From a virus: a stretch of 23,348 bases of DNA. Position 1 is the first letter of the stretch, and each line of letters begins with the position of its first letter. The notes under the pieces were generated by a model. That model ran no database searches, was not told where the DNA came from, and saw only the letters and a program-made list of their open reading frames with translations. Below are positions 18,681-22,722 of this stretch, one piece after another. Location of the stretch: positions 1-23,348 of the IMG/VR virus record IMGVR_UViG_3300010885_002828; one strand, given 5' to 3'. A program made the translations under genes and the position numbers.

Positions 18681-18708
18681 ATAATGCCACAAACCTTCGT
18701 CATTCCAA
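18681..18708 (-). promoter_or_regulatory. Weak candidate promoter for the minus-strand membrane gene
   Basis: Reading the minus strand, TTGGAA (18708-18703) and CATTAT (18686-18681) are separated by 16 bases; each matches the consensus at four of six positions. The inferred start of transcription, near 18674, would give a short leader containing the hairpin. It lies over the start of the tailspike gene. Matches of this quality occur by chance. Confidence 0.22.
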
Positions 18709-20195
18709 AGCAGGTTGGACTCATCGGCGGGGCGGTTGCGCCTGCGTCGGTGCTGCGGTTCTACCAGTCTGGGACGAGTACGCCTCAATTCGTATACACC
18801 GATTCGGGCCTGACTTCAGGCGTCACCAGCATCACGGCTGATTCTTCTGGAGTCTTTGCGAAGGTATATCTTAATCCCAACGCAACGGCAAATTACAGGG
18901 TAACCCTCGAAACCAGCGCGGGCGTTGTTACATGGACTGAGGACGACATTGCCAAGAATCCACTGACTCAAGCCTCTGTTGGCGAAACCCTCTACCCCCG
19001 CACGGCCGCCGAGATCGCGGCGGGCGTCACGCCGACCAACTACACCTATGAACCTGGGGATGTGCGACGGTATGGAGCCGACCCAACAGGCGTCTCCAGC
19101 AGCACGACCGCAATTCAATCTGCCATCACGGTTGGCTCTACTGTCTATTTCCCTGCTGGAACGTATCTAGCTCAGGGCTTGTCGCAATCAACCAGCTATC
19201 AGCGGCTGATTGCGCTTGGCGAAGTGACCATAAAGAAGAACGCCAACGGCACTATCCTGACCTGCACAGGCGATAACGTAGAGCTGAACGGGATTGGCTT
19301 TAGGGGTGATGCGTCATCCCCGACCTACACGGGCAACGGTGTTCTGATGAGCGGGGAAAACCCAAGGCTCATCAACTGCGGTGTCAGGTGGATTTCAGGG
19401 GTTCCGCTCACCTGCACCAAGAACCATGCCCAGATCATCGGTACGTGTGACCTGTACCAGACAACCGACGCGACTGGCACCGGATATGACATCGTAATCG
19501 GCACCAGCGGGACCGCAACGCTTTATCACCAACTGATCGGGATTTACTCCTCTCAGGCCACGGGTGGAATAAAGCTGATTGACACCGGCTCGCACGTTAT
19601 CTCGGGCGGGCAATTCGGGAAGCTGTTCATTGATGCGGGCACTTCTCCAGCCGGTGTCAATGGCGGGATGACTCAGGGAGCAAGAATCCTGGGGGCCGTA
19701 ACCGTCGAAATTTCCAGTGCAGTTTTCAGCGGCAACCAATTCGGCACAGTTGCCATTGCATTCGCGGCAGGTACGTCAGGTTGCTCGATGGATCGGTCGA
19801 ACATTTACGCGACCGGCGCGACGATCACGAACGCAGGCAACGACAACAACTTGATCGAACGGCAGCAAAGCACGGGCACCGGGTGCCAGATTAAAGTTGG
19901 CCCTGACTCTGCCGCAAACGGCGTAATCGTAGATATTTCCACGGGTTTGCAGACGTTCCCTTACAACATCAGCATTCCCAACACCTGCGCCTACAAACTG
20001 TTAAACGCTGCCGGAACAAATGCGGCGCAAGTCAACATGACCTCTGGGGACAATTTCCAGATGACAAACAATTACGGCGCAATTCAATTTTCGGCGTCTG
20101 GCGGGGTATACCAGTTCGTATCCTTGCCAACTTCGGCGGCGGGCTTGCCAGCGGGCGCGTTGTGGAACAGCGCGGGCACGGTAAAGGTGGCGTAG
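18684..20195 (+). CDS. Tailspike with pectate-lyase-like beta-helix
   Basis: This is the receptor-binding spike. Residues 1-88 are the common N-terminal attachment domain (QVGLIGGAVAPASVLRFYQSG, then VTSITADSSGVF and ATANYRVTLE). A conserved linker (YPRTAAEIAAGVTPTNYTY, 104-122) leads into the beta-helix, which opens with the GDVRRYGADPTG motif (125-136) typical of Pectate_lyase_3 proteins. Short beta rungs follow to about residue 400. The C-terminus (FVSLPTSAAGLPAGALWNSA) is a tag seen at the end of many phage tail proteins. It probably binds and cleaves a surface polysaccharide; catalytic residues cannot be assigned by eye. At 503 residues it is shorter than P22 gp9 (667). GGAG lies eight bases before the ATG, just after the terminator. 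Confidence 0.9.
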   Translation: MPQTFVIPKQVGLIGGAVAPASVLRFYQSGTSTPQFVYTDSGLTSGVTSITADSSGVFAKVYLNPNATANYRVTLETSAGVVTWTEDDIAKNPLTQASVGETLYPRTAAEIAAGVTPTNYTYEPGDVRRYGADPTGVSSSTTAIQSAITVGSTVYFPAGTYLAQGLSQSTSYQRLIALGEVTIKKNANGTILTCTGDNVELNGIGFRGDASSPTYTGNGVLMSGENPRLINCGVRWISGVPLTCTKNHAQIIGTCDLYQTTDATGTGYDIVIGTSGTATLYHQLIGIYSSQATGGIKLIDTGSHVISGGQFGKLFIDAGTSPAGVNGGMTQGARILGAVTVEISSAVFSGNQFGTVAIAFAAGTSGCSMDRSNIYATGATITNAGNDNNLIERQQSTGTGCQIKVGPDSAANGVIVDISTGLQTFPYNISIPNTCAYKLLNAAGTNAAQVNMTSGDNFQMTNNYGAIQFSASGGVYQFVSLPTSAAGLPAGALWNSAGTVKVA

Positions 20196-20244: not shown

Positions 20245-20565
20245 GTGGCACCAGAACCGATAACGCTGTGGGATCTACTCAAGTGGCTTGTCTCTGGACT
20301 CGGGGCAATCGCGCTGTGGATTGCTCGAATGTTTCATAAAAGACTTGATGAACACGAGATTAGCCATTCTCAGTTAGTCGAGAAGGTGAGGGACTTGGAG
20401 CTTAACTCCGTATCCCGTCCAACCTTCCAACGCCATGAGTCGGACATCAAGGACTCATTTGAATCGATGCGTAAAGAGGCTATCGGCAGAGAAGATCGCA
20501 TTGTCGGCGCTATAACGCGGCTAGAAAGTCGCATCGACAAGGTTCTCGAGGACCGCTCGCATTGA
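20245..20565 (+). CDS. One-span membrane protein with coiled coil, holin-like candidate
   Basis: The start is GTG with AAGGGG about seven bases upstream. Residues 8-29 (LWDLLKWLVSGLGAIALWIA and on) form one membrane helix, followed by a charged helix (33-105) with heptad-like spacing that probably forms a coiled coil. There is no cleavable signal peptide. Its stop overlaps the lysozyme start in an ATTGA junction, so the two are translated together. The partnership suggests a holin or holin regulator. Similar one-span proteins also occur as phage membrane anchors of unknown role. A second holin candidate lies at 22537-22722. Confidence 0.6.
   Translation: MAPEPITLWDLLKWLVSGLGAIALWIARMFHKRLDEHEISHSQLVEKVRDLELNSVSRPTFQRHESDIKDSFESMRKEAIGREDRIVGAITRLESRIDKVLEDRSH
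20548..20565 (+). promoter_or_regulatory. Ribosome site and ATT start of the lysozyme gene
   Basis: GAGGA (20548-20552) lies eight bases before ATT (20561-20563), whose last base is also the first base of the TGA stop (20563-20565) of the upstream gene. No ATG, GTG or TTG in this frame lies between the in-frame stop TAG at 20522-20524 and the catalytic region. The spacing and stop overlap are those of a normal coupled start. Confidence 0.7.
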
Positions 20566-20989
20566 CATTCGTGCGCTGATTACAGACCACGAAGGCGCAG
20601 TTCTCCACGCTTACAACGACCATCTCGGCTATTCCACCATCGGTGTCGGCAGGCTGATAGACCAGCGGCTGGGTGGCGGCATCTCGCACGACGAAGCAAT
20701 GTTCCTGCTGGATAACGATATCGCACGTTGTCGTGAAATGGCGCAGCGGTTCCCCTGGTATCACGCCCTGAACGAAGTCCGCCAAGCAGCGATCATCGAC
20801 CTGCTCTTTAACCTCGGGCTGGTTCGATTCAGAAAGTTCGTTCGATTCATCGCTTCAATGAATGACCAGAACTGGCTTTCAGCAGGTCAGGAGCTGGCCG
20901 CATCTGCGTGGTGGCTTCAGGTAGGCCGCAGGGGTCCGCGTATCAGATCCATGATTGAGACGGGGGAGTGGCCGAGTGAAAATCCCTAA
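20561..20989 (+). CDS. T4-type lysozyme endolysin (GH24), apparent ATT start
   Basis: This muramidase cuts peptidoglycan at the end of infection. Starting at ATT 20561 gives 142 residues beginning DIRALITDHEG after the initiator. The GH24 catalytic triad then falls at E11, D20 and T26, exactly the numbering of T4 lysozyme, in DHEG, YNDHLG and YSTIGVG. Later family features are GGGISHDEA, the VRQAAIIDLLFNLG helix and the SAWWLQVGRRGPR segment. Starting at the first ATG (20699) would remove the whole catalytic site. There is no signal peptide, so export needs a holin. AUU starts are rare (E. coli infC is the known case) and are restrained by IF3, which could delay lysozyme synthesis. A sequencing error at the start cannot be excluded. 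Confidence 0.87.
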   Translation: MDIRALITDHEGAVLHAYNDHLGYSTIGVGRLIDQRLGGGISHDEAMFLLDNDIARCREMAQRFPWYHALNEVRQAAIIDLLFNLGLVRFRKFVRFIASMNDQNWLSAGQELAASAWWLQVGRRGPRIRSMIETGEWPSENP

Positions 20990-21299
20990 ATCCTTCACGA
21001 TCATGGGCCACACGATCAAGGTCCATATCGTGAGCGTAAGGGACTGGGAATCGCTGGCTGAGAAATACGACGAGATGGACGATTGTTGTGGGTTCTGGGT
21101 GCCTGACAGCAATCTGATTGTTCTGCTTAGACAGCCAAGGTCGAAGCTTTTTCACACCTACACCCACGAGCTCACCCACGCCATCCTGTTCTACATGAAT
21201 AACAAGCTGTGGCGAAATGAGCAGTTCGTTGACCAGTTTGGCGGGCTTCTTTCCCAGGCGCTAGAGACAGGGACCAATGCCGACAAAGCAGCTAAGTAG
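20976..21299 (+). CDS. HExxH metallopeptidase-like protein, 107 aa
   Basis: GTG at 20976 is preferred over the upstream TTG at 20955 because GGGGAG lies seven bases before it and the protein then begins MKIPKSFTIMG, a natural start. The key motif is HELTH (residues 64-68), the zinc-binding and catalytic HExxH of gluzincins, with E82 as a possible third ligand; the arrangement resembles ImmA/IrrE or SprT-like small peptidases. Residues 1-50 form beta strands and helices including KVHIVSVRDWE and DSNLIVLL. The protein is soluble. It overlaps the lysozyme end by 14 bases and the next gene by 23. The substrate is unknown; a host or phage regulator are both possible. Confidence 0.72.
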   Translation: MKIPKSFTIMGHTIKVHIVSVRDWESLAEKYDEMDDCCGFWVPDSNLIVLLRQPRSKLFHTYTHELTHAILFYMNNKLWRNEQFVDQFGGLLSQALETGTNADKAAK

Positions 21300-22392: not shown

Positions 22393-22553
22393 CATCCACC
22401 CCTGAGGAATGCTTCCGCAGCGCCCGGAACCGCCTTGAGGCTATCCGCATGGCGCTGGAAGAAAACGAACTCCCGCTCTGTTTCGATGAGCTGGAGCGGG
22501 CTAGAAAGGACATGGAATACGGACTGAGGTTACTGAATGAACAGCGTACTTAA
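22389..22553 (+). CDS. Small helical hypothetical protein, 54 aa
   Basis: GTG at 22389 overlaps the stop of the previous gene (GTGA) and has GGAG eight bases upstream, so the open frame that extends further upstream is not used. The product is charged and helical throughout: PEECFRSARNRLEAIRMALE, then ELPLCFDELERARKDMEYGL. It looks like a short two-helix hairpin. It has no membrane segment and no recognised family. Its last 17 bases overlap the following holin-like gene. A role in lysis timing is possible only by position. Confidence 0.65.
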   Translation: MTSTPEECFRSARNRLEAIRMALEENELPLCFDELERARKDMEYGLRLLNEQRT

Positions 22554-22722
22554 CCTGTGGCGGTCCCACGGGACCAAGATCCTTGGCTTTGCTCAGGTGA
22601 CTGTGGGCGTGCTTGCCGTGGCTGACGGGGTGTTTACCCCTGAGTGCCTGAAGTACGTGCTGCTGGCATCCGGCCTGCTCACGGCATGGCGGGGCTACTT
22701 CAACAGCGCGCAGTCGAAGTAA
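22537..22722 (+). CDS. Two-span holin-like protein, 61 aa
   Basis: The protein has two membrane segments, about residues 14-33 (KILGFAQVTVGVLAVADGVF) and 37-55 (CLKYVLLASGLLTAWRGYF), joined by a short turn, with a basic N-terminus and a short C-terminus. This fits class II holins, which form membrane lesions that release endolysin. It is small even for a holin. It lies in the lysis region, upstream of the spanin-like gene, which supports the call. A small phage membrane protein of another type cannot be excluded. Confidence 0.62.
   Translation: MNSVLNLWRSHGTKILGFAQVTVGVLAVADGVFTPECLKYVLLASGLLTAWRGYFNSAQSK

Follow-up and report, generated by a model that had tools for sequence, protein, structure and literature searches.

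A phage T4-type lysozyme gene with a proposed AUU start codon overlapping the upstream stop codon

The lysozyme gene and its upstream junction

The window analysed here, i.e., the whole 23,348-nt stretch of the IMG/VR record IMGVR_UViG_3300010885_002828, encodes portal and major head proteins as well as a GH24 lysozyme of the T4 type. The genes and features at the lysozyme locus are as follows.

20245 to 20565, forward strand: upstream gene, 106 aa (ORF with GTG start at 20245 and TGA at 20563-20565)
20522 to 20524, forward strand: TAG, the in-frame stop that bounds the lysozyme frame on its upstream side
20548 to 20552, forward strand: GAGGA, resembling a Shine-Dalgarno sequence and lying 8 nt upstream of the ATT (pairing with the 16S tail -5.9 kcal/mol)
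20561 to 20563, forward strand: ATT, the proposed lysozyme start codon, whose third base doubles as the T of the upstream TGA
20561 to 20989, forward strand: GH24 T4-type lysozyme (endolysin), 142 codons plus TAA (Pfam, PHROG, AlphaFold)
20591 to 20593, forward strand: catalytic Glu codon (E11 from the ATT; invariant in an alignment of 61 sequences)
20618 to 20620, forward strand: catalytic Asp codon (D20 from the ATT; invariant in the same alignment)
20636 to 20638, forward strand: catalytic Thr codon (T26 from the ATT; invariant in the same alignment)
20976 to 21299, forward strand: next gene after the lysozyme, starting at a GTG within the 3' end of the latter (Shine-Dalgarno pairing -8.6 kcal/mol; PHROG 1233)

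The lysozyme was recognised by Pfam PF00959 (45.4 bits against a cut-off of 22.3) and by PHROG 7 (endolysin), and the Glu-Asp-Thr spacing E-x8-D-x5-T is present. The AlphaFold model had a mean pLDDT of 89 (92 over the first ten residues), and the top matches in a PDB fold search with this model were all T4 lysozyme (TM about 0.79). All 142 codons are uninterrupted and no invariant residue is missing. The GC content by codon position (0.62/0.42/0.64) is coding-like, and chance would leave a frame this long and of this base composition open with p of about 0.004. By sequence and model, the frame is predicted to encode a genuine GH24 T4-type endolysin. The protein encoded directly downstream (20976-21299) carries a zinc-protease-like HELTH motif.

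A preliminary description of this DNA had claimed that the lysozyme frame contains no ATG, GTG or TTG from the TAG at 20522 up to the Glu codon at 20591, that GAGGA lies 8 nt before an ATT at 20561 which overlaps the TGA at 20563-20565 as ATTGA, and that the triad counted from this ATT is E11, D20 and T26. All of this was confirmed when the sequence was read, and every coordinate agrees; the codons after the TAG up to Glu are AAA GTC GCA TCG ACA AGG TTC TCG AGG ACC GCT CGC ATT GAC ATT CGT GCG CTG ATT ACA GAC CAC. In the ORF list, the first in-frame NTG is the ATG at 20699, past the active site as had been stated, and the mechanically called lysozyme begins there and misses the active site. Readthrough of the TAG at 20522 was ruled out by a second in-frame stop (TAA) just upstream. 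A stop codon that begins on the third base of a start codon needs a start ending in T, which is impossible for ATG, GTG and TTG.

The combination of features at the junction was compared with what chance would give. Of all positions, 8.6% are preceded by a Shine-Dalgarno pairing at least as strong as -5.9 kcal/mol, an ATH or CTG codon is expected somewhere among five codons with p of about 0.22, and the RNA structure of the junction is unremarkable (z -0.5). A Shine-Dalgarno sequence, ATT+stop and the end of an upstream ORF coincide at 6 of the 105 in-frame ATT+stop sites in lysozyme loci, the window included; because the combination is also found at other lysozyme loci, it is little proof by itself. 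It counts against an AUU start here that the combination recurs at these other loci, where a nearby NTG can serve as start, and that the Shine-Dalgarno sequence of the window is typical, not extended. The case for the ATT start rests on its position and on the absent alternatives: the unusual feature is that there is no canonical start whatever, which is unique among 179 distinct lysozyme loci.

The upstream protein has one N-terminal hydrophobic, membrane-like stretch followed by a charged, coiled-coil-like part, and the gene is holin-like by position and topology only; it had no match in Pfam or PHROG, and its only relative found was in the sibling contig described below. In the nearest lysozyme relative (L003), the equivalent place is taken by a short ORF, membrane-helix-like and of unrelated sequence, and in Acinetobacter phage Alexa (vB_AbaP_Alexa, MT375042) a putative holin is annotated there. 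Elsewhere in the window, a 61-aa ORF with hydrophobic stretches lies 3' of an exonuclease-like gene (22537-22719); it is a possible holin with no Pfam or PHROG match.

Start positions and gene order in related lysozymes

We assembled 179 distinct GH24 loci, comprising the best viral relatives, loci from bacterial genomes, loci picked for an ATTGA at 25-34 nt upstream of the Glu codon, and others; the ATTGA-picked loci were taken from among the matches listed, and this selection is biased towards finding further cases. A canonical start is present in frame upstream of Glu, within at most 60 codons, in 178 of the 179 loci (the ATTGA-picked ones being those among the matches listed), the exception being the lineage of the window, and no ATTGA-picked locus among the matches listed lacked a canonical start apart from this lineage. 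The ATT start is thereby shared solely with a 99.96% identical sibling contig, the other 178 of 178 distinct loci being canonical, and the closest lysozyme relatives (47-50% identical) have ATG at the same place. The preliminary description had proposed conservation of a non-canonical start in related phages as a check; this came out negative beyond the immediate lineage, with no non-canonical start in any relative. The ATT start appears from these comparisons to be a derived state of a single lineage, with no sign of conservation, and not a general phage strategy.

Of the 171 loci to which a start was assigned, 141 have Glu at residue 11-15 and only 3 have it before residue 11. Since the window offers ATT, CGC, GCT, ACC and AGG at E11 to E15, ATT is the sole plausible start among them. 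The Shine-Dalgarno pairing at the ATT (-5.9 kcal/mol) is close to the family median at the assigned starts of the relatives (-6.1 kcal/mol). Other near-cognate codons of this open frame, i.e., ATT 20567, CTG 20576 or AGG 20549, might be used instead, but GAGGA, which suits 20561, is too distant for the first two of these. Helix A of the AlphaFold model comprises residues 3-11 counted from the ATT at 20561, ahead of the catalytic Glu, so that a protein started there is just long enough for the fold, whereas a start at CTG 20576 falls mid-helix: it would make Glu residue 6, lose half of helix A and have no Shine-Dalgarno sequence (0.7 kcal/mol). ATT 20567 has a pairing of only -3.5 kcal/mol and would make Glu residue 9, AGG 20549 sits on the Shine-Dalgarno sequence itself, and starts that place Glu before residue 11 are as rare in the relatives as given above. 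We consider initiation at any of these three codons quite improbable.

Several loci were tried as further cases of non-canonical starts and rejected. L143 and L149 have ATA and ACG at E12, respectively, with an in-frame ATG upstream at E57 (Shine-Dalgarno pairing -6.4 kcal/mol, measured for L149), and in L220, L235, L188 and L275 an ATT+stop is found close to the start but no good Shine-Dalgarno sequence accompanies it, and their frames are longer, with canonical starts. In L140 (1355-1525), L143 and L149, the holin-like frame extends beyond the point where the lysozyme usually starts, and no stop interrupts the lysozyme frame as far upstream as an ATG that lies within the holin-like gene, 56 codons ahead of the catalytic Glu; L140 retains ATG at E12, whereas L143 has ATA and L149 ACG. 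These three are possibly N-terminally extended lysozymes that overlap the holin out of frame.

In 109 of 171 relatives, an upstream ORF of 50 or more codons has its stop between -15 and +11 nt relative to the start of the lysozyme, most commonly as an overlap of the ATGA type; close stop/start junctions are found, e.g., in L003 (TAATG) and in the holin-lysozyme pair of Acinetobacter phage Alexa. At the ATTGA of the window, stop and start overlap in the manner taken to allow translational coupling, and, the overlap being the normal arrangement in the relatives, it can reasonably be inferred that ribosomes leaving the upstream gene reinitiate here (termination-reinitiation). The overlap, together with the lysozyme frame being +1 relative to the upstream gene, would also be compatible with a +1 frameshift fusion of the lysozyme with the upstream membrane-like protein, and the upstream stop stands in the context UGA C, a weak terminator, as at prfB. 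However, none of the codons GAA AGT CGC ATC GAC AAG GTT CTC GAG GAC CGC TCG CAT permits cognate +1 re-pairing, no slippery run is present, at CAT TGA a shift from CAT to ATT is not cognate (P-site re-pairing of the prfB kind is not available), and the nearest relatives encode the two proteins by separate genes. We find such a fusion hardly credible.

A second assembly and the state of the gene

The contig IMGVR_UViG_3300009163_000092 (L172; 36,425 bp) spans the window from end to end with 99.957% identity, the differences being 10 substitutions in 23,348 positions and no indels. None of the 10 substitutions falls in the lysozyme or the junction, and the ATT junction is identical in this sibling. 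It was the sole match in a degenerate scan with the N-terminal coding sequence of the lysozyme, and no DNA-level relatives were found among phage and plasmid records. Two of the substitutions (18989 and 18995) lie 6 nt apart in a pectate-lyase-like tail protein gene (18684-20195).

In a metagenomic contig, an assembly base error might hide a true canonical start. Two distinguishable assemblies share the ATT junction, the second being distinct at 10 other sites, which makes a base error unlikely. The preliminary description had set a read of ATGAC against the ATT start, but this is not a valid counter-case: deletion of the T gives M-T-F-V-R-stop, and an error of one deleted base would not bring the lysozyme frame back. 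Only a substitution at 20563 would create an ATG at 20561, and the upstream stop would then be lost as well, making the upstream protein about 50 codons longer. A base error is, to our mind, very improbable.

The main rival to a functional AUU start is that the start codon was recently lost in an otherwise intact gene, in which case the lysozyme would be barely or not expressed, and lysis would proceed via another, unrecognised enzyme or the contigs would represent defective proviruses. All relatives are canonical at the equivalent place, and both contigs belong to one lineage that shares the state. The sibling encodes a lambda-type integrase (PF09003, PF00589), an ERF recombinase and an HTH regulator; the phage is a temperate one, so that decayed proviruses are conceivable. 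On the other hand, the lysozyme gene has no stop or frameshift and retains every invariant residue, and the neighbouring genes are open. GH24 was found once in the 36,425-bp (36.4-kb) sibling, with no second copy, no other endolysin was found among the flanking ORFs scanned, and the scatter of substitutions between the two contigs suggests that the phage is in circulation. We regard a recent start loss as unlikely, yet as a serious candidate. From about 110 nt before the right end of the window onward, the sibling also contains a pair of overlapping ORFs without Pfam match, the first Rz-like (N-terminal membrane helix, coiled coil) and the second Rz1-like (lipobox-like LVISGCA), which by appearance only look like Rz/Rz1 spanins.

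Proposed initiation at AUU and comparison with known systems

In our estimate, the probability that translation of the lysozyme begins at the AUU at 20561 is about 60%. The AUU would initiate with fMet, the GAGGA Shine-Dalgarno sequence would set the position of the start, and it would probably be supplied, through termination-reinitiation, with ribosomes that completed the upstream gene at its overlapping UGA. Output is expected to be well below the level of an AUG, yet may be enough: in lambda-type lysis, timing is set by the holins and not by the quantity of endolysin, and we infer that a low output of endolysin could suffice because the holin normally sets the timing. The AUU would then be a derived state of one lineage that is tolerated rather than shown to be selected. 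Nothing in the sequences compared indicates that selection maintains it, because it is confined to one lineage and the nearest relatives have ATG.

The earlier interpretation thus fared differently in its two parts. The ATT start is favoured by its family position, a normal Shine-Dalgarno sequence, a typical overlap and the second assembly, whereas a role as a translational brake, or in coupling lysis to the host's IF3, found no comparative support, with a non-canonical start in no relative. It is possible that the AUU acts as a brake or IF3 sensor; lysis timing wired to IF3 is an idea that the comparisons leave without support. The full proposal, i.e., an endolysin whose sole start is an AUU merged with the upstream stop, which throttles synthesis and depends on termination-reinitiation and on host IF3, we hold to be decidedly unlikely.

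AUU starts themselves are an established rarity (infC, pcnB, IS911). If initiation at this codon is confirmed, it would be the first documented AUU-started endolysin, as far as the literature searched shows, and gene callers limited to ATG, GTG and TTG would drop or truncate some lysis genes. The survey of relatives sets a bound on this, such starts being rare among GH24 lysozymes, and the practical effect on phage annotation would be small. The announcement of Salmonella phage f18SE claims ten genes starting with AUU (PMC4599075); we rejected this as a precedent, as the 52 of its 53 deposited CDS that were checked (KR270151) start with ATG (45), GTG (5) or TTG (2) and none with ATT.

In bacteria, AUU initiation is established for infC, and IF3 represses non-canonical starts (PMC5472188); the AUU of infC is conserved in Escherichia coli and B. 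subtilis (PMC1805508). The E. coli infC resembles the window in that its AUU is preceded by a Shine-Dalgarno sequence with no canonical alternative in the right place, but it is conserved and autoregulated by IF3 (PMC5472188; PMC1805508), whereas the phage AUU occurs in one lineage, and any regulation through it would be hypothetical. AUU starts are also reported for pcnB and IS911. IS911 orfB (Polard 1991, Prere 2011, both cited in PMC4066793) is reportedly a mobile-element gene whose AUU start overlaps an upstream frame, out of frame; it differs in that the same region is reported to direct -1 frameshifting as well, the window having no slippery site. In S. aureus, AUU/AUA starts, including cvfC1 (AUU), reach about 10% of AUG in RPMI medium, and the non-canonical sites carry extended Shine-Dalgarno sequences (PMC13009471). 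The likeness of cvfC1 and ccpN (AUA) to the window is low-level initiation at an AUU or AUA placed by a Shine-Dalgarno sequence (PMC13009471), although for the window this level is what we would expect from its codon, and the non-canonical start and extended Shine-Dalgarno sequence of cvfC1 are conserved in staphylococci (PMC13009471), neither of which holds for the window. The closest parallels in organisation are the T4-type GH24 lysozymes behind a holin-like gene, e.g., in Alexa (MT375042), which have the fold, the triad, the gene order and the stop/start overlap in common with the lysozyme of the window, but in Alexa and all others examined the gene starts with ATG, GTG or TTG.
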